From Firmicutes bacterium HGW-Firmicutes-14 (GTDB lineage Bacteria > Bacillota > Thermincolia > Thermincolales > UBA2595), in contig PHAB01000025.1 in NCBI GenBank assembly GCA_002840275.1, positions 1 through 34,651 of the forward strand: 34,651 bases of DNA, given 5' to 3'. Position numbers and translations under genes: made by a program. The notes beneath the pieces are model-generated. The model searched no databases, was not told the DNA's origin, and saw only the letters and a list, made by a program, of their open reading frames with translations. Shown here one piece after another: positions 7,460-34,307 of this stretch (position 1 is its first letter; every line of letters starts with the position of its first letter).

Positions 7460-7630
7460 ATGGCTAAAGTACGCAGTATCCGAAAAGACATTCCCGATAC
7501 GTGGGAAGAAGCAATGCAACAGTATCTCTGGTTTAAAAAGGCGGAAGGTTTAAGGGGACAGCACTATCATGTTAATTATTACAGCTTATTTCCTCCTGTT
7601 TTTATGTCTAACTTCTTGGGTCCATTATAA
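7460..7630 (+). pseudogene. Tyrosine recombinase (integrase) N-terminal remnant
   Basis: A 56-codon frame from ATG 7460 with GAAGGGGG upstream. It reads MAKVRSIRKDIPDTWEEAMQ, then QYLWFKKAEGLRGQ and HYHVNYY, the pattern of the N-terminal SAM-like core-binding domain of phage/XerD-type integrases (WEEAL..FL..KKAEGL...TL..Y..HV). A few residues normally present between LRGQ and HYHV are missing, and integrase similarity ends near residue 42. The remaining 14 codons overlap the end of the convergent gene and look like read-through. No catalytic domain (R, HxxR, Y) exists nearby. It is probably the last trace of an element once integrated at tRNA-Leu. Confidence 0.65.
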
Positions 7631-8133
7631 TTAGTTGCTATCAACGGTAATTTCTCATCTTTTATCTTACTATCAGGAAATAAACTATCGTCACCTAATT
7701 TAGAAACAAGTAATCCTATGTTTGCCCCAAAAATAGCATGGTCAACGAAACTCAATATATGGGTCAATGGTTTGTTGCTCTTTACAGTTAATCCAAGTCT
7801 AGAGATCAAACCCCATATACTGATCCATTGCATTGCTCCGATACCTGCACCTTTTATAAATGCTTTATCCCTACCTGTTGCAGAAAGCAGATAAGTAATC
7901 AATGTACCTGTAGCACCCACCATAGTGTTATTGACAAGCGAGGCAATAATCTTGCCTTCTATCGTATTTGCCTTCGCTTCCTCCTTTGGTAAGAACAGAC
8001 TTGCACCAGGCTGATTGAACCGCATATCGGTAAGTCCTGCTTTGTATTCAATGGCATTGGTTGCTCTACCTATTGCACCTGCTATAAGACCACAAACTGC
8101 TCCCAAGATAATTCTATCCTTAATCTTCCTCAT
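7579..8133 (-). CDS. Hypothetical membrane protein (184 aa)
   Basis: Start ATG 8133 with AGGAGAG about 9 bases upstream. Likely membrane segments are near residues 8-26 (IILGAVCGLIAGAIG), 64-84 (SLVNNTMVGATGTLITYLLS), 93-115 and 127-145 (FVDHAIFGANIGLLVSK). Glycine-rich small-residue helices, a central TGRDKAFIKGAGIGAMQW and a polar C-terminal tail are visible. I recall similar uncharacterised proteins in other Bacillota, but cannot name the family or function. It is intact and has a good ribosome site although its surroundings are eroded. Confidence 0.7.
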   Translation of the reverse strand: MRKIKDRIILGAVCGLIAGAIGRATNAIEYKAGLTDMRFNQPGASLFLPKEEAKANTIEGKIIASLVNNTMVGATGTLITYLLSATGRDKAFIKGAGIGAMQWISIWGLISRLGLTVKSNKPLTHILSFVDHAIFGANIGLLVSKLGDDSLFPDSKIKDEKLPLIATNYNGPKKLDIKTGGNKL

Positions 8134-10774: not shown

Positions 10775-10913
10775 TTGTGGGTTAATACCAGGGAAGCAAT
10801 AAACCCGCAAACTCAAATTGATATTATGTTAACATAAAGTTTAAAGGAATCTTCTGTTGGATGAAGAATTTATTTCAGCAAGAAACTGGTATTTTTCTGT
10901 AAGGGTGATACAG

Positions 10914-12479
10914 ATGAAATTTGCTGGAATAAAAACAAAAATAACCATCCCCCCAGGCTGGGATCAGGTTATTGTTATATTTTCTTTTTTCGCTGCTGCT
11001 TGTTCCCTATATTTATTTGTCACCGGCTTATCACCGGAAATTTTTTTTGATTCCGACCTTTTGTACCTTCCGTCACTTTATCGGGACCTGTTCATTGACG
11101 GATACAGCCTTGCGGGCTGGAGCCTGACCCCGGCTCCTTATTATTTCCCTGATATGGTCCTCTATTTTTTGCTCAGGTTTATTACGGGGGACTTCTTAAA
11201 TGCGACTCTCGTTTATGCCATTATTCAGCCTATTATCCTCATTTATGCTTTCCGGTTTTTGCTAAAACAGTTTTTAGGCGGTCTTTCCATCATTGATGAG
11301 GCCATCATTCTTCTCGCATTCATCACCCTGTTTTCAGCTATTGGCACCTGGGATTTTCTTAAATATGTCCTGCTGCCTTCGATGCATACCGGAAGCCTGA
11401 TAATGTCAATAGTATCACTGGCTCTATTTATAAGATTTATCGTAAAACCTTCCCTGCCCGGAATAATAGTTATATTTGCACTATGTATGGCAACCGCTGT
11501 GTCAGACATGATTTTCCTCGTATATTTCGTTCTCCCGGTTGTTTTAACCTTTATTCCGATTAGATACCTTTCGAATCATCTTCCCAGTCTTGATAATGCA
11601 GCAAAAGCGCTCTTTGCTTCTATAACAGGCTCTGTAACAGGTTTGGCGGTTTATTACGCGACAACGCCAAACAGGGGAATTGCCCACAAGTATATGATTA
11701 CAGATACCAAATCAGCCTTCGAATCTCTTTATATCTTTTTAAATGATATAATTTCAGGCTTAAACCCGGCTAATTTCTTCTATCTGATATTAATCCTGCT
11801 TTGGATATCAATATCGCTTTATTTAGTGTATTCCATTATTAAAAACAAAAAATCAATGGAAGAAAACCAAAGGCTCATTTTTTTGTTCTTTACAGTATTT
11901 CTGCTTGCCCAGAGTCTTATAACCCTTTCGGCCGTCCTGATCACCGGAAATTACTCTTCCCCTGTCGGCTTTAGATACCTGCTTCCTTTGACTGTTATGC
12001 CCCTGTTGGGAATGTATGCATATTTATCCTATTATTTATCAAAATGGAATCCCCAATTATATTTTAAAAAGGTATTGTTATCAATTGTTCTCATTACCAG
12101 TTGTATTGTTTTCACCATCAATCTGGCAGGACATACAAAACAAAAAAGCTTCACTGATTATTACCCGGAACTTGTGGAATACCTCGATAATAACTCTGGA
12201 AAATATGGCCTGTCTTACGGGTTATCGGATTATTGGCATGCCAAACTAATTACCATGTTCTCCCGAAAGAACCTTCGTGTCAACCAGGTACAGTATGACT
12301 TACAGGAAGTATACTGGATTAACAACAGGGAATGGTATGAATATACGGATGACGGCCGGTATAAATTTAACTTCATTATTACCGACAGACTTCCGAAAGA
12401 TAAATTACTTGAGAAATTCGGCTCTCCCGGGGAGGTTCTGATAACCGGCCGGTCGGAAATCTGGATTTACCTGAAGTGA
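10914..12479 (+). CDS. Large polytopic membrane protein, GT-C glycosyltransferase-like
   Basis: About 521 residues from ATG 10914 (AAGGGTG about 6 bases upstream); TTG at 10857 with AAAGGA is an alternative adding 19 residues. Around ten to twelve hydrophobic helices run from residue 20 to about 420, followed by a soluble C-terminal part of about 100 residues ending GRSEIWIYLK. The first external loop has FFDSDLLYLPSLYRDLF, with acidic residues just after helix one, as in GT-C enzymes that use polyprenyl-phosphate sugars. The helix arrangement and C-terminal soluble domain fit that fold. There is no named family match and no sugar gene neighbour. Base composition is more AT-rich than the efflux operon, possibly indicating transfer. 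Confidence 0.6.
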   Translation: MKFAGIKTKITIPPGWDQVIVIFSFFAAACSLYLFVTGLSPEIFFDSDLLYLPSLYRDLFIDGYSLAGWSLTPAPYYFPDMVLYFLLRFITGDFLNATLVYAIIQPIILIYAFRFLLKQFLGGLSIIDEAIILLAFITLFSAIGTWDFLKYVLLPSMHTGSLIMSIVSLALFIRFIVKPSLPGIIVIFALCMATAVSDMIFLVYFVLPVVLTFIPIRYLSNHLPSLDNAAKALFASITGSVTGLAVYYATTPNRGIAHKYMITDTKSAFESLYIFLNDIISGLNPANFFYLILILLWISISLYLVYSIIKNKKSMEENQRLIFLFFTVFLLAQSLITLSAVLITGNYSSPVGFRYLLPLTVMPLLGMYAYLSYYLSKWNPQLYFKKVLLSIVLITSCIVFTINLAGHTKQKSFTDYYPELVEYLDNNSGKYGLSYGLSDYWHAKLITMFSRKNLRVNQVQYDLQEVYWINNREWYEYTDDGRYKFNFIITDRLPKDKLLEKFGSPGEVLITGRSEIWIYLK

Positions 12480-24131: not shown

Positions 24132-24644
24132 TTAGCACGCAAAACTTATGTCGGCTGCCAGGGTGTTCCCGAGGTTAAGGATTATTATCAACCGGTCCGA
24201 ATAATTGGCTATGCCCTCGATGAATTGTTCATTTAGCCCGTTAGTCATTAAAGATGACGGGGGTTCGATCACTTCCGGGGGAATTCTTACAACTTCTGAA
24301 ACCATATCGACAATCATCCCCACGGTATATCCCTTCACTTCTACAACCATAATGCGCGTTGATTTAGTTGCTGCTGAGGAATCGAGTCCGAACTTCCCCG
24401 CCAGGTCATATACCGGAATTACCGTTCCCCGAAGATTGATTATACCTTTGACATACTCTGCAGTCCTCGGCAATGTGGTCAATTCCTGCATAACGATTAT
24501 CTCCCTGACACGGCTGATTTCTATACCGTACGTTTCTCCCCCAAGCTGAAATACCACAAACTGCTTGTCGTCATTCTCCGGCCCTGAATCAGCCCCGTTT
24601 AATTCTTCGGCCAGTGCTGGGTCAGTGATTTTTTTCTTCATCAT
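24132..24644 (-). CDS. cheW: Chemotaxis coupling protein CheW (copy 1)
   Basis: 170 residues. An acidic N-terminal tail of about 25 residues precedes the CheW fold: FVVFQLGGETYGIEISRVRE, then GIINLRGTVIPVYDLAGKFG (the NLRG segment that contacts receptors), then VDMVSEVVRIP. CheW links receptors to the CheA kinase at the membrane. Start ATG 24644 with AAGGAG is 9 bases after the stop of the receptor gene upstream, so the two are co-translated. It is a paralogue of the CheW at 27124-27627; the pair share most of the FIEGIAN(Y/C)SDRLII end. Confidence 0.93.
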   Translation of the reverse strand: MMKKKITDPALAEELNGADSGPENDDKQFVVFQLGGETYGIEISRVREIIVMQELTTLPRTAEYVKGIINLRGTVIPVYDLAGKFGLDSSAATKSTRIMVVEVKGYTVGMIVDMVSEVVRIPPEVIEPPSSLMTNGLNEQFIEGIANYSDRLIIILNLGNTLAADISFAC

Positions 24645-24653
24645 AGCAACTCC

Positions 24654-26699
24654 TTACCCGGCGGTCATAATCTTGAATGCTTTACAGTTCATGCAGCGGT
24701 GCCGCTTGGATTTAGCATCCCCCTGCTTGACTCCACCGCACCAGGTCCCTTCAATTAGCCAGCATCTCTTCTCTTGCGCATTATATCCGGGGCACTTACT
24801 GCGGAATTCCATTGCACAGTTCATTACATCCCAGCAATTCTCCCTGATTTCCCTCAGCATAAACTTTCCAACCAGCTCACTGAGGTTATCCGCTGTATCT
24901 GCCAGGTTTTGAGCAGATACTGAAATCTCTTCAATTGACGCGCTCATCTCTTCCGTTGACGCTGATACTTCTTCGGCAGCGGCAGAACTCTGTTCAGTGA
25001 CCGAAGAAATGCTCTCCATAGCCGCCGCAACCTGGGCGCTGGCCGCTGTCAGTTGTTCTGTGGCAGCTGTATTCTGTTCGGTAATCGCACTCACATTGTC
25101 AATGGCCTTGACAACCTCCTGGCTGCTGGCAGAAATCTCCTCGGCAGCAGCAGATATGTTTTGAACCTGACGGTATGTCTCTTCGACAGTGTCCAGAATT
25201 TCTTTTAAAGCCTTACCGGCATCAACAGCCAGGGATACTCCCTGTTCTACTTCGCCGGTACCTTCTTCCATGGCTTTAACGGCTCCGGCGGTTAATTTCT
25301 GGATGTTGGTAATCAGTTCGGCGATTTCCTTAGTCGCCTTACTGCTCCGTTCAGCCAATTTGCGGACCTCATCTGCAACCACAGCAAAACCTTTACCGTG
25401 TTCCCCTGCCCTGGCTGCCTCGATAGCAGCGTTCAAGGCAAGGAGGTTCGTCTGTTCAGCGATATCGTCAATCACCTGGATGATTTCACCGATCTGCTGG
25501 GAATGTTCACCCAATTCCTTAATCTTGCTGGCGGTTTCAAAGACCTTATCCCTGATGCCATCCATGCCGTTGACGGTAAGTTCAACTGCTTTTTCTCCCT
25601 TATCCGCCACTTCCCTGGTCTTTTCCGCAGACTGAGATACTGTCTGGGCGCTGGATGCCACTTCTTCTATGGAGGCTGCCATCTGGTTGACCATGTCGGC
25701 AGTAGTGGTAATGTTGTTCACCTGCTCCTGGGCGCCTGATGCGATCTGTTCTATTGCACTGTTGACCTGACCCACTGTCTCGATGGAGCTGTTGACAAAC
25801 TGGCTCTGTTCCGTAGAACCCCTGGCAATCCCCTGGATAGCCTCAGCCACCTGCTGGGTCCCTGTGGAAGATTTTTCAGCATTGTCCGACAGTTGTTTAC
25901 TGTTGGTCAGCACTGCCGAACTGGTTGAACTTATCTGGTATATCATGTTCCTCAGGTTCTGGATCATCTTGTTGAACGCATCTGCCATCATTCCTATTTC
26001 ATCTTGGCTGGAAATATCAATCCTCTGGGTTGTCAGGTTTCCATCTGCAACCTTTGACATATGCCCTGTTAACAAATTAACCGGGCGTGTCACTGACCTG
26101 GTGAGAACGATAGCTAAAATGAACCCCAGCGCCAACGAGATTACGACAACCGCCAATATTATGATAAGCCCGGTTCTCTGCTGGGCTGCGGCCTCCTGGC
26201 GGGCTTTTTCCTCATTAGCTGCCAGATACTCACCCATGTTAGTGAACTGGGCCCGGATAAAGGTTAGGTAACTGATGGTCTGCTCCCTGAATATCCGCTC
26301 GGCTTCAGGTTTATTGCCTTTTACCAGTTCAGCCTGGATAAGCTCGGCTGATTTATGTAAGTTGTTATGTGGTTCTTCTATCGTGGTGAGTATTCCTGTT
26401 AACTCGGAATCGTCAGTCACGAAGCTGTAATACCATTTCCCGAAACCACACTCTTTGGGGTCAAGCTGTTTTGTAAATTCCTTGCCAAGGTAAATTGTGT
26501 CATACATGGCATTAACCCATTCCAGGTGGTCGGTGACTTTTTCAGCGAAGAAATACCTCAATTGCAGGTCTTCCCGTTCATTTGCCGTCTTTTTATTAAT
26601 AGCCTGTACCGTATAATACGAGGCAATTCCCGTAATAATAATTAAAAGCAGTATTAAAGTAAAACTGAAAAACATTTTCTTTCCAATTGTCAATTTCAT
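24654..26699 (-). CDS. Methyl-accepting chemotaxis protein with an external CZB-like zinc module and a C-terminal Cys-rich two-CW domain
   Basis: 681 residues, start ATG 26699 after GGGAGGGG. TM1 residues 9-31, external domain 32-176, TM2 177-199, HAMP about 200-252, then the signalling coiled coil with the conserved tip [20 protein letters not shown]. The external domain has DHLEW (His58), [11 protein letters not shown] (Cys84) and EPHNNLH (His111, His115), the 3-His/1-Cys pattern of the CZB zinc-binding domain, here in the sensor position. The last 66 residues have seven Cys (622, 628, 636, 646, 654, 669, 672), with CW at 622 and 646 ([24 protein letters not shown]), as in two-CW domains. 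Metal, redox or hypochlorite sensing is plausible. It is paired with the CheW downstream. Confidence 0.9.
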
Positions 26700-27051
26700 A
26701 TTACCCCTCCCAACGCAAACACTTTAAAAGCCCGGCAGGCCTTTACCCACACAGCTGTCACCTAATGAATGTTATCACCTTCACAAGAACCCCGTCATTA
26801 ACGCCACCCCTTTCATTTTGTTTTCCTTTTCATTTAAAGCCGTTCCGCCGGCAATTAGAGATTTTTTATTTCTGCTTTCCTTAGTACTTATTTAGTTAGT
26901 ACTACATTTATAGTAGTTTAGTCCCCCACTTCTTCGACAAATTCCTACATTTTCCTTCTTTTTACTTAAAAACAATATATTTTCCTATGTCCTTTCAATA
27001 ACTGGGTTTTGTTTTGGAGGGTATTAACATCACCTTAACGTTTAGGATCAC
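26700..27051. other. Intergenic region upstream of the first MCP
   Basis: No gene seen. Besides the promoter-like set at 26881-26941 it holds only AT-rich sequence. The ribosome site GGGAGGGG of the MCP lies at 26702-26709. Confidence 0.5.
26881..26941 (-). promoter_or_regulatory. Possible Spo0A-dependent promoter of the first MCP operon, with nearby repeats
   Basis: Minus strand: a perfect 9-base Spo0A box TTTGTCGAA (26933-26941), whose TTGTCG could serve as -35. A 22-base spacer leads to -10 TATAAA (26907-26912); long spacers of this kind occur at Spo0A-activated promoters such as Bacillus spoIIG. The -10 lies inside an ACTAC-N7-GTAGT dyad (26901-26917), and TTAGTACT is repeated with a 15-base period (26881-26888, 26896-26903). 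Confidence 0.4.
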
Positions 27052-27094
27052 TGAAAAGGACCGTTCTCAGTTTATTAACCGAGAACGGTCCTTT
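27052..27094 (-). terminator. Terminator after the second CheW gene
   Basis: GGACCGTTCTC (27058-27068) pairs with GAGAACGGTCC (27081-27091), an 11-base perfect stem; on the minus strand TTTT follows. It lies about 30 bases after the CheW stop. Confidence 0.85.
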
Positions 27095-27123
27095 CGGTAT
27101 CCTATGTTTATTTCGTTGATATA

Positions 27124-27627
27124 TTAAGCTATAGATTCAATTTCCCCGGCAACCAGGGAATTATCCAGGTTAAGTAATATGATCAACCGGTCCGAACAAT
27201 TAGCTATGCCTTCAATAAACTGTTCATTCAGATTGTGGGTTATCACAGAAGAGGGGGCTTCAATTATTTCTGCCGGTATCCTAAGCACTTCAGAAACCAT
27301 ATCTACTATTATCCCAACTACAAAATTCCGCACTTCCAGTACCACTATTCGTGTCGACCTTCCCCGGCCGGAACTTTCTATCCCCAGTTTTCCAGCCAGG
27401 TCATAGACTGGGACCACTGTACCCCGAAGGTTTATTACTCCCATGACATATTCTGCCGCCCTGGGTATAGCGGTCAGTTCCTGTAAGGGGATAATTTCTC
27501 TTACACGGCTGATATTGATTCCATATATTTCCTTGCCAAGGATAAAAACCACAAACTGCCTGTCTCCCTCAATATGCTGTATATCGCGTTTTTCTTCTGC
27601 TGCCGGCCTGGTCTGTTTCTCATCCAT
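27124..27627 (-). CDS. cheW: Chemotaxis coupling protein CheW (copy 2)
   Basis: 167 residues with the same layout as copy 1: an acidic tail, FVVFILGKEIYGINISRVRE, then GVINLRGTVVPVYDLAGKLG, then VDMVSEVLRIPAEIIEAP and a final FIEGIANCSDRLIILLNLDN. Start ATG 27627 with AAGGAGGTGG is 12 bases after the receptor stop, so the receptor and coupler are one operon. The high similarity of the two MCP-CheW pairs suggests duplication of a two-gene module. One may serve a separate array, or both a common CheA encoded elsewhere. Confidence 0.93.
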   Translation of the reverse strand: MDEKQTRPAAEEKRDIQHIEGDRQFVVFILGKEIYGINISRVREIIPLQELTAIPRAAEYVMGVINLRGTVVPVYDLAGKLGIESSGRGRSTRIVVLEVRNFVVGIIVDMVSEVLRIPAEIIEAPSSVITHNLNEQFIEGIANCSDRLIILLNLDNSLVAGEIESIA

Positions 27628-27639
27628 ATCACCACCTCC

Positions 27640-29493
27640 TTAAAGCCTGAACCTGGCAACCATTTCCCGCAGTTCTTCTGCCATTGCCGCCAGGGTCTGA
27701 GACGCCGATGAAATCTCTTCAATTGAAGCAGTCATTTCCTCTGTGGAAGCAGATACTTCCTGTGCTGCCGCAGAGGTTTCCTCAGTGACGGATGAAATAC
27801 TCTCCATTGCAGCACCAACCTGGCTGCTGGCGGCTGTCAGCTGCTCTGTGGCAGCGGTATTTTCTTCGGTAATGGAACTGACATTATCGACCGCTTTAAC
27901 AACTTCCTGACTGCTGGCAGAAATCTCTTCTGCCGCAGCTGAAATGTTTTGGACCTGCCGGTATGTCTCTTCAACATTCCGAAGTATCTCTTTAAGGGCA
28001 TTGCCAGCATCATGGGCCAGCCAAACACCCTGTTCCACTTCCCCCGTGCCCTGTTCCATGGCAGTTACCGCTTCGGCAGTTAACTTCTGGATATTTGTAA
28101 TAAGTTCTGCTATTTCCTTTGTTGCCTTTCCGCTGCGTTCTGCCAGTTTCCGCACCTCATCAGCCACTACTGCAAAACCCTTACCGTGTTCCCCGGCCCT
28201 GGCTGCTTCGATGGCCGCGTTCAAGGCAAGCAGGTTCGTCTGTTCGGCGATATCATCAATCACCTGGATGATTTCACCTATCTGCTGAGAATGCTCTCCC
28301 AGTTCCCTAATCTTGTTTGCAGATTCAAATACTTTACCCTTTATTCCTTCCATTCCTTTAATTGTTTGTTCAACTGACTGTTCACCCTTATCTGCAGCCA
28401 CTTTGGTCTTTTCTGCCGATTGAGTAACTGTCTGGGCGCCGGATGCCACTTCCTCAATGGAAGCTGCCATCTGGGTAACCATATCGGCAGTTGAAGTTAT
28501 GTTGTTTGCCTGTTCCTGTGCCCCAGATGCGATTTGGCCTATGGCACTGTTCACCTGACCCACGGTATCCATCGTACCCGTAACAAACGAGGTCTGCTGG
28601 GATGCCCCCCTGGCCACCTCCTGGATTGCATTGGCTACCTGCTGGGTTGCCTTTGCAGCCTCATCCGAATTGGTGGATAATTCCTCACTTGTCGCAGCAA
28701 CATTCTGAGCGGAATCATTTACCTTGGAAATTAATTCTCTCAAGTTACTGAGCATTGTCCTAAAGGCCTCGTTAAGTGTTTGTACCTCATCCTTTGTCCT
28801 GACATCCGGTATCGAAACACTCAGGTCACCTTTGGCTATTTGACCCGCTGCGGCGGCAAGGTTCATCACAGGTTTTGAGATACTCCTGCTGATCAGCAAA
28901 CCTGCCAAAATGCCAAAAATGGCAGCAACTGCCATCACCACATAATTGTTCCTCATTGCCGAATGGCTGCCCTCTTCTGCCATGGCAATATGTTCTTCGA
29001 CGCTTTTGTCATTTGTGCCGTCCCATTCATGGATAATCACATCTATCTGGTCAATGTCCTCTTCAATTTCTTTCATAGATGCCTGGGCCGCCGCCATGTT
29101 ACCGGCGCTTACCAGCTGAAAGACTTGCCTGATTTCCCCACAGAACTCCTCATCCAAAGCGGCTATACGTTCCAGTTTTTCCTTTTCCTCATTACTTAAA
29201 TCCAGCTTGCGTGTTTCTGCCAGAACTTCTTCAGTTTCTGCCTCCAGTTCGTTGAACTCATCAATTGCAGCCTGATCCTGTTTCTGTATATACAACAGGG
29301 CATGGGCAAACTGGCCGTTATAATTATTGGACAGTTCCCATATATGAGTACTTATAGTCCTGTGGGTGTTGACCTCCCCGTATTCATATTCAATTGCGTT
29401 CATCCCTTTAATGCCAAAATATCCTACCAGGACTAAAAAAGCAATAATTAAGAAATACCCAGATATTATTTTCTGCCCCAGTTTTAATCTCAT
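27640..29493 (-). CDS. Methyl-accepting chemotaxis protein with 4HB-type sensor domain
   Basis: 617 residues, start ATG 29493 after AAGGGGGAG. TM1 residues about 9-29, a helical external domain 30-185 rich in Glu (four-helix-bundle MCP type, [20 protein letters not shown]), TM2 about 187-205, HAMP ([20 protein letters not shown]), then a signalling coiled coil with the same tip as the other two receptors. No Cys-rich extension. The ligand cannot be inferred. An ACCGATAA element at 29556-29563 resembles a sigma-D -10 box, but a matching -35 is absent. Paired with the CheW directly downstream. Confidence 0.93.
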
Positions 29494-29671
29494 CCATACT
29501 CCCCCTTGTTATCTATTTCATTTTCCTGCCTATACCTCCGTGTTTTTCCTTTAGTTTATCGGTATTTTTCCACTTCTTAATAAAGTTATTAATATCAATT
29601 TTATTAAATGTTAATAAATTTGTAATATCTCACTTAGAGGCTGTCCATTGGAATCCACCTCCCTTGAGTAA

Positions 29672-29698
29672 GAAAAAAGACCTTAACAAATCAGGTCT
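29672..29698 (-). terminator. Terminator of the arginase operon
   Basis: On the minus strand AGACCT, a 9-base loop, AGGTCT, then TTTTTTC. Confidence 0.8.
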
Positions 29699-29718
29699 CT
29701 TACTAATCACACGGACTC

Positions 29719-29751
29719 ATACCAATTAATATTTAACATGCTAATTGGTAT
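29719..29751 (+). repeat. Inverted repeat, terminator-like on the plus strand
   Basis: ATACCAATTA (29719-29728) pairs perfectly with TAATTGGTAT (29742-29751); on the plus strand GTTTTTC follows. No plus-strand gene is known to end here. Confidence 0.5.
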
Positions 29752-29859
29752 GTTTTTCATTCTCTATATTCTATGTTCGTGAAAATTCGACTTTTCCCTT
29801 TAAAAAAAGGAAATATTTTACCGAATTATGTAGTAATATTTCTTATACAAGTAAAATTT

Positions 29860-30759
29860 TCAATAAAATATCCTTTTCCCAAGGGCAGATGTAACCAGTT
29901 CCACCGCCAGTCTTGCCGTACGGTTCCCCCCTATATCAACTATGGGATTCACTTCACAAACCTCCAATGACCTGAGCATTTTTGTCTCAGCAATCAGTTC
30001 CAGGGCCAGGTGTGCTTCCCTGTAGCTAAGCCCGCCGGTTACCGGTGTCCCCACACCTGAGGCAATGGCCGGATCTATTACGTCCAGGTCAAAACTTACA
30101 TGGATGCCGCCTCCGCCACCGGCCTTAAGAAGAGCTTCCTTTATCACCCTGGCCATTCCCAACTCATCGATTTTTTTCATGCTGAACACGGTTATTTTCG
30201 ATTCTCCCAGCATTGATTTTTCCTTATTGTCCAGGTCCCTGACACCGATCAGGACGGTTTTTTCCTCCCTGACCTTGGGGGCCCTTCCACCCAATTGCAC
30301 GAGGTCCGGGTGGCCCCTTCCGGTCACTGCTGCCAGGGACATACCGTGGATGTTTCCTGTTTCACTTGTTTCAAATGTATTGAAGTCTCCATGGGTATCA
30401 AACCAAATAAGGCCCGGGTCTCCGGCAGACCTGCAGACCCCCGCCAGAGTTCCTATGGCAATACTATGGTCACCTCCCAGGACAAGAGGGAAACCGCCCC
30501 GTTCCAATACTTCAAATACCCTGTCACCCAGCTCCTCACAGACCTCTAATATTTCCTCCAAAAAGAGAAAATGAGGATTAGCCACCTTAATACTCTCCGG
30601 AACAGGGACCTCAATATTCCCGTGGTCCGTAACCTCCAGGCCCATATCCAGGAGCGCCTTTCTCAGGCCGGCATAACGCATGGCACTGGGTCCCATATCA
30701 GTCCCTCTCCTGTTTGCCCCCAAATCCACGGGTACACCTATAATGTCAATTCTGTTCAT
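29860..30759 (-). CDS. rocF: Arginase
   Basis: 299 residues from ATG 30759, preceded by GGAGGG; a longer frame to 30795 lacks a site. The enzyme hydrolyses L-arginine to L-ornithine and urea with two manganese ions. Visible metal motifs: LGGDHSIAIG (His), FDTHGDFN (DxHxD) and SFDLDVIDP (DxD). The N-terminal IIGVPVDLGANRRGTDMGPS and the GVGTPVTGGLSYREAH loop are characteristic of arginases rather than agmatinases. The start overlaps the end of the racemase gene by 14 bases, so the two are translationally coupled. The product ornithine would feed the neighbouring ornithine racemase. Confidence 0.92.
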   Translation of the reverse strand: MNRIDIIGVPVDLGANRRGTDMGPSAMRYAGLRKALLDMGLEVTDHGNIEVPVPESIKVANPHFLFLEEILEVCEELGDRVFEVLERGGFPLVLGGDHSIAIGTLAGVCRSAGDPGLIWFDTHGDFNTFETSETGNIHGMSLAAVTGRGHPDLVQLGGRAPKVREEKTVLIGVRDLDNKEKSMLGESKITVFSMKKIDELGMARVIKEALLKAGGGGGIHVSFDLDVIDPAIASGVGTPVTGGLSYREAHLALELIAETKMLRSLEVCEVNPIVDIGGNRTARLAVELVTSALGKRIFY

Positions 30760-31879
30760 AGGATTTCCCTCCGGCCACATATTCCTTATTAACATAATCT
30801 GATGTCATTACCGCCAGCAGCCCCGGATACTCTAAACCGAATTCCAGTTCAGAGCCCACACCGAAATCACCGGCACTTGCTCCGAAATCCAGCATTGTAT
30901 GGTCACTGGTAGCGCCTATCACCTTAATTCCCGGCCATTTTCTTTTTTCTGTATTATTGCCGTTGAGCCAGTTAACCGGATAAACCGCTTCCGGAGGCAC
31001 ATCCTGCCTGCCAAAAGCGGCTATACCCCGGAAATGTATCTGCAGTTTCTCCTGCTCCGGCCGGTCCCCAAAAGTATTTGAACCCATTTCCCCAAGGGGT
31101 TGTGACGGTTTTTCTTTTAATTCGATTAATTCAGCAATAAAAGTAAAGGCATCCTGGTGTGTCCCTTTGATTGGAGAACTGTCAAAAATATACCGGCCCA
31201 GCAATATTGATTCTCCTATCCTAAACTGGTTTATACCTGCCGGCAGGGACCCGGACTGGATAAGTTTCAATCCGCTGCTGTTCCCCCCCGAATAAACCTT
31301 TAGCCTGTAACCCAGAATCTCTTGGAGTTCCTTCCCGGTGGCCAGCAGCAGGTTCATATTTTCCCTGGTGGGTTTCACCCCGCTGTAGCATGCGAGGTTT
31401 GTCCCAATCCCCACGACCCTGATTCCTTTTAAGCCCCTTACAAATTCACCGACTCTGAATATGTTAGCCGGAAGTATTCCCTCCCTTATTTCACCAACAT
31501 CAATCATTAATATTACCGGGTGCTCCGCGCCCTGTTCAAGGGCACATTCCGACAATCTGCCCAAGACTTCCGGTTCGGAATTCAGGCTTACATCACTGTA
31601 TATCACAACATCTTCTATCTCTGAGAGCATGGGGCTTCTAAGCAGCATTACAGGCGCTTTGATTCCGGCGGACCGCAGTCTTTTAATGTTCTGAATCCTT
31701 GCATCTGCCAACCCCCGCACACCGCCCTTTAACATGGCCAGCGCCACCCTGGGATCGCCGCAAACTGCCTTGGTAACCCCTATAACTTCAATCCCGTGTT
31801 TGGCGCACATTTCCACAATTGTCTGCGTATTTACACTGACCTTATTGGGATCAATAAGTAGCCGTGGATTTACAGTCAT
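30746..31879 (-). CDS. orr: Ornithine racemase-like PLP enzyme (alanine racemase N-terminal family)
   Basis: 377 residues. A TIM-barrel racemase: PRLLIDPNKVSVNTQTIVEM, with the likely PLP lysine in GVTKAVCGDP (Lys37), then LMIDVGEIREGI, GIGTNLACYSGVKPT, YSGGNSSGLKL and FRIGESILLGR. This pattern (VTKA.CGDP, FRIGESILLG) is that of ornithine/alanine racemase-family proteins such as clostridial Orr, which convert L- to D-ornithine. The adjacent arginase, which makes L-ornithine, supports that substrate. It overlaps the GNAT gene upstream by 4 bases (ATGA). A broader amino-acid racemase is possible. Confidence 0.85.
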   Translation of the reverse strand: MTVNPRLLIDPNKVSVNTQTIVEMCAKHGIEVIGVTKAVCGDPRVALAMLKGGVRGLADARIQNIKRLRSAGIKAPVMLLRSPMLSEIEDVVIYSDVSLNSEPEVLGRLSECALEQGAEHPVILMIDVGEIREGILPANIFRVGEFVRGLKGIRVVGIGTNLACYSGVKPTRENMNLLLATGKELQEILGYRLKVYSGGNSSGLKLIQSGSLPAGINQFRIGESILLGRYIFDSSPIKGTHQDAFTFIAELIELKEKPSQPLGEMGSNTFGDRPEQEKLQIHFRGIAAFGRQDVPPEAVYPVNWLNGNNTEKRKWPGIKVIGATSDHTMLDFGASAGDFGVGSELEFGLEYPGLLAVMTSDYVNKEYVAGGKSYEQN

Positions 31880-32349
31880 AATTCCCTCTCCATTATTAAC
31901 CTGTCTTCCCCGGGTCCGTATTCATCTTTAACATATTCTTTTTCCCAAAAGCCTAATTTTTCCCTGTAAAGATACACGGCCCCCCTGTTGTCAGGGCTTA
32001 CACTAAGTATTAATCTGATGATCCCTTCATCCTTCAGGATTGAGAAAGACCTTTCAAGGAATTCAGTACCAAGCCCCCGGCCCCTGTATTCCGGTAGTAG
32101 TGATATCCCATAAAAATAAGCGGTACCGTCCCCGGTCCATGTCCTGATAAACTGGGCGGAGCCAATAAATTCACCTCCCGTCTCAGCGGCAAGGACCTTT
32201 CCGTAACGGAGGACCGGGAGAAACAACCACTCATTGTGGAGGCCGCCATTTCCAAAGGCCTGTTTTTCTATACCAACCAGTTTTCTTACCACATCAGTTT
32301 CATGTGCTTTGATTTCCCTGACCAATATTCCGGCTTGTATGGCAGACAA
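31876..32349 (-). CDS. GNAT-family N-acetyltransferase, first gene of the ornithine racemase/arginase operon
   Basis: About 157 residues. The likely start is TTG at 32349, with AAAGGGG 8 bases upstream; a GTG at 32376 is possible. The GNAT fold is clear: beta4 FYGISLLPEYRGRGLGTEFL, containing the acetyl-CoA loop RGRGLGT, then LSVSPDNRGAVYLYREKLGFW. Members acetylate amines with acetyl-CoA. The stop overlaps the racemase start (ATGA). A role in acetylating ornithine or a related amine is an inference from context only. RimI-like protein acetylation is the alternative. Confidence 0.85.
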   Translation of the reverse strand: MSAIQAGILVREIKAHETDVVRKLVGIEKQAFGNGGLHNEWLFLPVLRYGKVLAAETGGEFIGSAQFIRTWTGDGTAYFYGISLLPEYRGRGLGTEFLERSFSILKDEGIIRLILSVSPDNRGAVYLYREKLGFWEKEYVKDEYGPGEDRLIMEREL

Positions 32350-32465
32350 AGTAACACCCCTTTCCGCTAAAAACACAGCCTACCATTATTGTGTATTGTC
32401 CCGGTGATTTTTATCCTATGGTTTGTGAACCTGAGAAGACGGGCCTGTCATTAATAAATACACTC

Positions 32466-34307
32466 CTACAGTTTAAACCTGTCAACCATTTGGTTAAGGT
32501 TTTCCGCCATTTCTGCCAGCCTCCGGGATGCCGCGGAAATTTCCTCAATCGATGAAGTCATCTGTTCCGTTGAGGCTGAAACCTCCTGGGCTGCGGCGGA
32601 AGTCTCCTCTGTTACGGCAGAGATGTTGTCCATTGCCGCATTCACCAGGTCGCTGGATGCAGTTAATTGCTGGGTAGCAGCAGCATTCTCCTGAGTTATA
32701 GCACTTACACTGTCCATTGCCTTGACAACTTCCTGGCTGCCGGCAGAAATCTGCTCTGCAGCAGCAGAGATATTCTGCACCTGGCGGTAGGTTTCATCCG
32801 CGTTTTGAAGTATTTCATTAAGAGCATTTCCGGCATCAAAGGCAAGCCTAGCCCCCTGTTCTACCTCTGCAGTACCCTGTTCCATAGCAGTTACGGCTTC
32901 AGATGTAACTTTCTGTATATTGGTTATTAATTCAGCTATTTCCTTGGTAGCCTTACTGCTTCTTTCGGCAAGTTTCCTGACTTCATCAGCCACAACGGCA
33001 AACCCTTTGCCATGTTCTCCCGCCCTTGCAGCCTCGATAGCCGCATTCAGTGCGAGCAGGTTGGTCTGTTCAGCTATGTCATCTATTACCTGTATTATTT
33101 CACCGATTTGCTGGGAATGGTCACCCAATTCACGGATTTTACCGGCTGTTTCAAAGACCTTGTTTTTTATGCCATCCATACCCTGAATAGTCATTTCGAC
33201 TGCCTTACCACCTTTTTCCGCAGCTCCTTTAGTCTTTTCAGCCGAACGGGAAACGGTCTGGGCGCCGGATGCCACTTCCTCGATAGAAGCAGCCATTTGG
33301 GTAACCATGTCGGCCGTGGCAGTAATGTTCCCAGCTTGTTCCCCAGCCCCTGTGGCAATCTGGTCTATGGATTGGTTAACCTGAATAACTGTTTCCTTGG
33401 TATCTGAAACAAAGGCAGTCTGTTCCGAAGCACCCCTGGCTACTTCCATGATCGCATTGGAAACCTGTTCTGTGACCCTGGCCGCTTCACCGGAATTGTC
33501 CGATAGGTTCCGGCTGGTGAGGCTGACATTGTGTGAAGCATCAGTCAGACCGGAAACCAGGGTCCTTAAGTTATGTACCATATTATTAAAAGCATCCACC
33601 AGCAGACCCATTTCACCTTTAGTCTTTATGTCCACTGTCATTGTCAGATCACCGGCAGCAATATTATCAGCGCTGTCTTTCAGTGCAACAAGAGGCTTTA
33701 TAATAGACTTATTAATCAGCCGGGAACCGATTAAGCTTAATGCCGCAGTCACCACAGTTGCCAAAATGATTATTAAACCCACCATCTTCTGTTTTGTCTC
33801 TGATGCCTTAATTACACCGTTTTCTTTCTCTCTTATTATTTCTATTAGCTGATTAAGGTCCTCGGACAATGCCGATGCGGCTCCATCCATTTTTTCCATC
33901 AGTTCTGCTCCGGCAGGATTCCCAACAGGATTCTGCAAGGACAGGATATCCTGTTCTGATTTCCTGACCTCATCGTACTCCTCATCAATTTTGTTTATCA
34001 GGGCCTTTTCCAAATCTTTCACAGAAGCATGTTTTACTTTCTCTATACCTTCCTCTACCCTTTTATCCAACTGCTTATAAAGTTCTTTCTCCTCAGCACT
34101 GCCGGTTATAAGGTAATCATTTCCCGGCATTACAACTTCAGAAAAGTTTATCTGCAAATCAGTTATTGCTTCCCTTTGGTGTGACAATGCTTTCATTTCC
34201 CCGGTACTCTTACCCAATTCAATGACGGCAAAATAAACCGCGGCTCCGGCTAATATTACAGCCAATACTGTTCCGCTAATGATTCTTACCATCGCTTTAA
34301 GGCTCAT
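32466..34307 (-). CDS. Methyl-accepting chemotaxis protein (third copy)
   Basis: 613 residues, start ATG 34307 after GGGGTGAAAGCGG. TM1 residues about 8-28, an external helical domain 29-175 with charged residues ([20 protein letters not shown]), TM2 about 175-195, HAMP ([20 protein letters not shown]), then the signalling coiled coil, the same conserved tip, ending [11 protein letters not shown]. It has no CheW partner and stands alone, with the GNAT operon 116 bases downstream. A TGTCGAA core lies at 34348-34354 and an ACCGATAG element at 34412-34419 upstream; both are weak signals. Confidence 0.93.

Follow-up and report, generated by a model that had tools for sequence, protein, structure and literature searches.

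A conserved operon of GNAT, Orr-family racemase and arginase genes in a Thermincolales bacterium and its possible role in D-ornithine formation outside fermentation

Two reports (PMC3958899, PMC8803604) describe D-ornithine 4,5-aminomutase as the enzyme that uses up D-ornithine in fermentation; the clostridial ornithine oxidation pathway, as presented in the second of them, involves the genes orr, oraS, oraE, ord, ortA and ortB. Here we describe a row of three genes located on the minus strand at positions 29860-32349 of contig PHAB01000025.1 of Firmicutes bacterium HGW-Firmicutes-14 (34,651 nucleotides, analysed over its whole length and referred to as the window). The row comprises the genes for a GNAT-family acetyltransferase, a racemase and an arginase, and has an Orr-family racemase in common with the clostridial system. 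An arginase gene following the racemase gene is also found in ornithine oxidation rows of some Peptococcaceae; however, the family to which the window's host belongs shows no aminomutase domain and only distant OrtB-like matches, and the GNAT gene is an addition. The arginase is like the bacterial RocF enzymes (TIGR01229) in score, length and Mn-ligand positions, but its operon partner is a racemase, and genes of the RocD/RocE type, which we take to be the usual RocF partners, do not adjoin it. The combination of a D-amino acid with an N-acetyltransferase recalls the logic of the DgcN system (DgcN being presumably a D-glutamate N-acetyltransferase; we use the name of the NCBIfam model), although here the acetyltransferase is a GNAT protein and the partner racemase is of the pyridoxal phosphate (PLP) type. 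Finally, a Shinella cluster likewise joins an Orr-family racemase to an arginase-family domain. There, the two are fused, the arginase half is degenerate in close relatives (loci L085 and L126) and the neighbouring genes suggest a dehydrogenase route, whereas no such dehydrogenase scores over cut-off in the window's family.

The coordinates of the three open reading frames (ORFs) bear out the overlaps of 4 and 14 bases on which the preliminary description of this DNA was based. The first gene, encoding the GNAT-family N-acetyltransferase (31876..32349), and the second, encoding the Orr-family (alanine/ornithine racemase family) PLP-dependent amino-acid racemase (30746..31879), share the sequence ATGA at 31876-31879, which combines the stop codon of the former with the start codon of the latter. 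The last base of the racemase stop codon is 30746, whereas the arginase gene (29860..30759) begins with the ATG at 30759, giving a 14-base overlap that presupposes this start; a second in-frame ATG lies upstream at 30795, and of the two only the one at 30759 is preceded by a Shine-Dalgarno (SD)-like GGAGGG. SD-like sequences also lie upstream from the racemase ATG (GGAGAGGG) and from the TTG codon at 32349 of the GNAT gene (GGAAAGGGG). This TTG, proposed as the start in the preliminary description, appears more plausible than the GTG at 32376 that opens the longest ORF. The 4-base overlap is retained in all four relatives fetched from the same family (L030-L033), where some 11 to 69 bases lie between the racemase and arginase genes; the overlap of 14 bases was thus encountered in the window only. 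Scans of the window with consensus patterns returned 5 promoter-like sites against 4.4 in shuffled sequences and 1 terminator-like site against 3.5, thus no excess of either. Co-transcription of the trio is inferred with gene spacing as its sole basis, and the three genes probably form a translationally coupled operon.

Conservation of the trio had been set beforehand as a check. At an E value of 1e-10, matches to the racemase were found in 26 of 101 genomes (the host's own, its kin and the phylum), two of them weak. The host assembly measures 3.65 Mb and is 99.96% complete. Five of the nine family genomes have the racemase, and all five show the order GNAT-racemase-arginase; the genomes with an arginase over cut-off (5/9) are exactly those with the racemase. 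Within the family, which spans three genus codes here, identity to the window's proteins is 66-68% for the racemase and 76-78% for the arginase. The identical order recurs outside the family in the distant genome G054 (UBA1874), with the arginase split into two ORFs, bringing the total to six genomes. In trees, the six racemases cluster together (support of 93 in a quick tree and 86/90 in a more careful one), and so do the arginases (97/94), the G054 piece included. Both proteins fall apart from their Peptococcaceae versions. Racemases from ornithine gene rows sit on both sides of the trio group, and those closest to it include L040, a member of such a row. In the quick racemase tree, four duplicate rows were removed, L035 and L200 had no racemase ORF and three short rows were retained; neighbours were labelled automatically in it, and the label OraE is doubtful for L201 since no PF16554 match is listed for genome G281. 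An initial scan of contigs with a single query sequence yielded no relatives. The trio is not described in the titles and abstract openings of the papers listed for ornithine racemase and D-ornithine. We conclude that it is a real conserved operon in which known kinds of enzymes stand in an uncharacterised arrangement.

The identity of the arginase, as assigned in the preliminary description, is convincing. The protein passed the cut-off of TIGR01229 (rocF_arginase) with a full-length match (291.7 bits, cut-off 227.6), and its closest solved relatives are the arginases 1cev and 6nbk. All six positions of the GGDH, DxHxD and DxD motifs, which we take to be the Mn ligands, are kept (6/6), as are the N, H and E residues of NIHG and EVNP, presumably involved in substrate binding. 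At the level of sequence, then, the predicted active site is shown to be intact.

The racemase passed PF01168 (Ala_racemase_N; 95.5 bits, cut-off 24.1) and matched NF040742 (racem_Orr) over the full model, positions 1-351 of 351. Its AlphaFold model (predicted local distance difference test score, pLDDT, of 92) has alanine racemases as nearest folds in the PDB. A phmmer search of PDB sequences gave no match, and sequence profiles retrieved only distant relatives among solved structures (best E value 1.2e-8). Residue K37, which we assume to be the PLP lysine, is invariant across 41 aligned rows. The PF01168 domain, the alanine-racemase-like fold and K37 place the protein among the fold-type III PLP racemases. 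Membership of the Orr family, which the preliminary description had proposed, is sustained by the full-length NF040742 match and by the fold; the curated Orr cut-off of NCBI is not reached (365 bits against 480), so that ornithine is a candidate substrate. The racemase of L111, located in an ornithine gene row, is likewise under the cut-off, at 428 bits.

The GNAT protein passed PF00583 (59.1 bits, cut-off 20.7) and failed the RimI model TIGR01575 (37 bits, cut-off 86.4). Its subfamily is marked by a C-terminal EYGxGEDR-like block. The AlphaFold model (pLDDT 90) matched GNAT folds in the PDB, and RimI structures were present among its Foldseek matches. The protein matched neither DUF1611 nor, at an E value of 0.001, the DgcN model NF041892.

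Together, these features suggest an ornithine-centred route, which we put forward tentatively and as falling somewhat short of an even chance. Arginase would cleave L-arginine to urea and L-ornithine, a step well supported by sequence. The Orr-family PLP racemase would interconvert L- and D-ornithine, as suggested by its family and its neighbourhood. In the third and weakest step, the GNAT protein would acetylate the D-product, pulling the D-amino acid from the equilibrium. The route from arginine to D-ornithine proposed in the preliminary description thus stands as far as the arginase and the racemase family are concerned, with ornithine and arginine both as candidate substrates of the racemase. 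As to its suggestion that the acetyltransferase may modify ornithine, a downstream amine or the enzymes, the protein co-occurs with racemases lacking an aminomutase (see below), and protein acetylation may also be its role.

The module would be detached from D-ornithine fermentation, since the aminomutase is missing across the family searched. The D-ornithine aminomutase domain PF16554 had no match in any of the nine family genomes, the host included, and an energy metabolism based on this enzyme was rejected. An OrtB query gave matches in all nine at an E value of 0.001, all distant and partial and reaching at most 37.1 bits (30 bits for the best in host genome G000); these are read as other enzymes. 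The combination of oraE and ortB in a genome, taken as the mark of the ornithine oxidation pathway, does not occur in the family. Given the absence of PF16554 and the distance of the OrtB-like matches, aminomutase fermentation of ornithine in this family is very unlikely. The remark in the preliminary description that the usual D-ornithine aminomutase genes are absent from the window extends to the whole genome and the nine family genomes, and fermentation, one of the end uses it had considered, is practically excluded. Since the family lacks the aminomutase, the product would probably be used as such and not for energy, for example as a D-amino acid derivative that is stored, exported or connected with the cell wall.

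Other fates of ornithine, and of the urea, were surveyed in the same genomes. D-amino-acid dehydrogenase was over cut-off in none of the nine, which all gave weak part matches. Ornithine cyclodeaminase (PF02423) had no match in the host and was matched in four of the nine, once barely (25 bits, cut-off 24). The sole urease match in the host (23.8 bits against 23; 52 residues long, its frame interrupted by stops) was read as not being a urease. A gene of the Orn/Lys/Arg decarboxylase family is over cut-off in eight of the nine, with a weak match in the ninth; its distribution does not track that of the arginase (5/9), so that a role of the arginase in supplying ornithine for decarboxylation is conceivable but less likely. 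In a wider survey of 398 genomes, an Orr-type racemase was found in 95, of which 60 have OraE and 35 do not. Here, a genome was counted as having OraE if a frame of 470 amino acids or more matched PF16554, and G175 (fragments) was added; G347 (444 amino acids) was excluded, frames of about 250 amino acids were taken to be lysine aminomutase, and the OraE queries were placed on the PF16554 matches. With 35 of 95 genomes, the orphan Orr-type racemases form a group of considerable size and diverse gene neighbourhoods, to which the window belongs.

The link between racemase and arginase was reinforced by adjacency in separate lineages and by protein fusions. A stand-alone arginase gene follows the racemase gene in 6 of the 25 loci fetched first and in 7 of 80 named loci, the latter being the best 80 of 577, not a random sample, and including three (L057, L058, L061) that duplicate genomes of the 25. 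A complete ord-ortA-ortB-oraS-oraE-mutL-like row in Paradesulfitobacterium (L111) and in Peptococcaceae CEB3 (L136) ends with the racemase gene and, after it, an arginase gene whose product shares 57% identity with that of the window; the Desulfosporosinus arginase (L117; 56-57% identical) ends the fetched part of such a row, from ortB on, and the L119 arginase is likewise at the end of the fetched part. Because arginase genes sit in these Peptococcaceae ornithine rows, conversion of arginine to D-ornithine is, judging from gene content, an existing use of the racemase-arginase pair. A MEMO/AMMECR1-like gene comes after the pair in L037, L198 and L218.

In 15 of the 80 named loci the racemase ORF extends into an arginase-family domain (L064, L071, L073, L074, L075, L077, L078, L085, L089, L103, L104, L112, L126, L130 and L133), and all nine fusions tested for Pfam domains carry both over cut-off. 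Their hosts include Spirochaetota, Pseudomonadota, Actinomycetota and others, and the fusions occupy separate parts of the tree, corresponding to three changes. Of three close copies on plasmids, two bear the plain annotation of alanine racemase. While the six metal-ligand positions are complete in all ten aligned stand-alone arginases, none of the 15 fused domains has all six (one to four are kept; the most degenerate align weakly). The joining of a racemase to such a pseudoarginase has the look of a means of regulation, of which no description was found in the titles and abstract openings of the papers listed for ornithine and arginine racemases. On a Shinella plasmid, the fusion stands in a cluster with genes for a D-amino-acid dehydrogenase (473.5 bits, cut-off 383) and a 5-guanidino-2-oxopentanoate decarboxylase (737 bits against a cut-off of 500); agmatinase, aldehyde dehydrogenase and RidA are further annotations there. 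The cluster is a probable route of D-arginine oxidation.

Several observations weigh against the ornithine-centred route. The trio is missing from four family genomes (completeness 61-75% in three and 91% in the fourth); the racemase scores below the Orr cut-off; the degenerate arginase half means that the fusions themselves give no sign of arginase flux; and the Shinella neighbourhood of a fused homologue points to arginine as the substrate. Because the fusion lies in this apparent D-arginine cluster, arginine stays a serious candidate for the racemase family. The main rival explanation is that the racemase acts on arginine, in the salvage of D-arginine through L-arginine to L-ornithine and urea or in a D/L-arginine balance, with the GNAT protein acetylating D-arginine. 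Besides the reading of the Shinella cluster as D-arginine oxidation, an arginine-binding protein as partner would suit an arginine enzyme. Nevertheless, L040, among the racemases nearest to the trio, lies in an ornithine gene row, as do the arginase-adjacent racemases of Peptococcaceae, and D-amino-acid dehydrogenase is not over cut-off in the family; we consider this explanation unlikely, at something like one chance in four.

The evidence on the acetyltransferase comes chiefly from its distribution. A GNAT profile matched 46 of the 398 phylum genomes, 39 strongly; the latter, with at least 114 bits, are the GNAT genomes counted here, the seven weaker ones being excluded. An Orr-type racemase is present in 29 of the 39. 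A racemase without OraE occurs in 23 of the 39 GNAT genomes and in 12 of the 359 others (odds ratio 42, a genome-level figure inflated by kinship among genomes), or in 17 of 33 against 12 of 359 once six profile-seed genomes are excluded. The corresponding family-level counts are 9 of 17 against 7 of about 124 and, without two seed families, 7 of 15 against 7 of about 124, assuming 141 families from the highest code, f140. Genomes in which the racemase is accompanied by OraE show no association with the GNAT protein (6/39 against 54/359). The genome lists were transferred by hand, and the profile seeds L100, L107 and L116 are named genomes that may also be coded among the 398. The GNAT gene of L100 shares 4 bases with the end of a gene for an Orr-family racemase, in an order unlike that of the trio, and in L107 and L116 it lies 32-39 bases after such a gene.

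A comparable arrangement involves another acetyltransferase type. On each of two plasmids inspected, one from a Vibrio and one from a Ruegeria, an Orr-family racemase gene and a gene for a DUF1611 protein overlap by 4 bases; these DUF1611 proteins match most of the DgcN model, far under its cut-off (158.5 and 154 bits against 480). A pair formed by a D-glutamate N-acetyltransferase and an N-acetyl-D-glutamate racemase is named in PMC11747546. With either a GNAT or a DgcN-like partner beside Orr-type racemases, racemase plus acetyltransferase is, as far as predicted functions go, a recurring pairing.

Four points tell against the acetyltransferase's part in the ornithine-centred route. Ten of the 39 GNAT genomes have no Orr-family racemase (E value 1e-50), and the GNAT protein is absent from 12 of the 35 genomes in which a racemase occurs without OraE. 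Solved relatives of the protein include protein N-terminal acetyltransferases. Lastly, outside the trio, 28 loci with GNAT relatives were fetched, of which 25 had the GNAT ORF called; in 16 of these 25 an era-like gene adjoins it, and 15 of the 16 have a cdd-like gene at its opposite flank. The names of neighbours used throughout (era, cdd, ybeY, MEMO, AmrS, MutL, OraS, Ord, OrtA, OrtB, OTC and CK) were assigned by eye from the sequences. The place flanked by cdd-like and era-like genes is taken by the racemase gene in L045, L046 and L048 and by the GNAT gene in L170-L173 and L175-L180. These data would fit an explanation in which the metabolic unit consists of arginase and racemase, the GNAT protein being a RimI-like protein acetyltransferase or a housekeeping enzyme that is co-transcribed by coincidence. 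The distant RimI match (37 bits), the RimI structures among the Foldseek matches and the era-like and cdd-like genes beside many relatives speak for it, and protein acetylation may be the role of the GNAT protein in view of the RimI-like folds and the era-adjacent relatives. On the other hand, the GNAT protein co-occurs with aminomutase-less racemases even when unlinked, is paired with the racemase in another order (L100, L107, L116), and shares a 4-base overlap that is maintained in the family. We regard this explanation, too, as rather improbable.

An arginase following the racemase in Peptococcaceae ornithine rows might also mean that the trio is the decaying remnant of an ornithine-fermentation operon after loss of the aminomutase. 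The broken arginase of G054 would suit decay there, or be an assembly error. Such an origin is very improbable in view of the conserved catalytic residues, the persistence of the trio across three genus codes and the separation of its proteins from the Peptococcaceae versions in trees. That three unrelated genes came to be neighbours by chance, a view for which only the generic nature of GNAT proteins could be invoked, is hardly conceivable and was rejected, given an order conserved in six genomes and the protein fusions.

Other features were noted in the window and in related loci. A gene for a carbon monoxide dehydrogenase/prismane protein (PF03063) at 105-1969 on the minus strand is split over two frames, the piece at 794-1969 covering model positions 1-352 and that at 105-779 positions 346-512; by its layout, this is a frameshift, real or due to assembly error. 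Within 24132-34307, on the minus strand, three large ORFs resembling chemotaxis proteins (methyl-accepting, by eye), with very similar signalling parts, flank the trio, as do a CheW gene (PF01584) at 24132-24644 and, by eye, a CheW-like ORF at 27124-27627; similar large ORFs stand beside the trio in L030 and L033. The window ORFs at 10857-12479 (plus strand, 540 amino acids) and 7579-8133 (minus strand, 184 amino acids) had no Pfam match at an E value of 0.001. Elsewhere, Orr-family racemase genes adjoin genes of the MEMO/AMMECR1-like kind, in many cases accompanied by radical-SAM genes (AmmeMemoRadiSam, as judged by eye) and whether OraE is present or not, in L034, L035, L037, L038, L039, L051, L065, L069, L084, L102, L198, L202, L218 and L225. 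In Atribacterota and one unclassified contig, the gene of a racemase 38-40% identical to the query is directly followed by an ornithine-carbamoyltransferase-like gene (L059, L062, L067, L068, L087, L108 and L132).

Returning to the ornithine-centred route, a bolder version of it can be formulated, which we hold to be doubtful. The trio would be a dedicated route from L-arginine by way of L- and D-ornithine to N-acetyl-D-ornithine, and its GNAT protein would found a family of D-amino-acid N-acetyltransferases accompanying aminomutase-less Orr-type racemases across the phylum, as a counterpart of DgcN on another fold; arginase and racemase would have been fused repeatedly, with a non-catalytic arginase half that perhaps senses arginine. 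Orr-type racemases carry the annotation of ornithine or alanine racemases, and yet 35 of the 95 genomes encoding an Orr-type racemase are without the aminomutase that would consume D-ornithine. The partnership with a GNAT protein and an arginase offers a testable handle on free D-ornithine or D-arginine outside fermentation.

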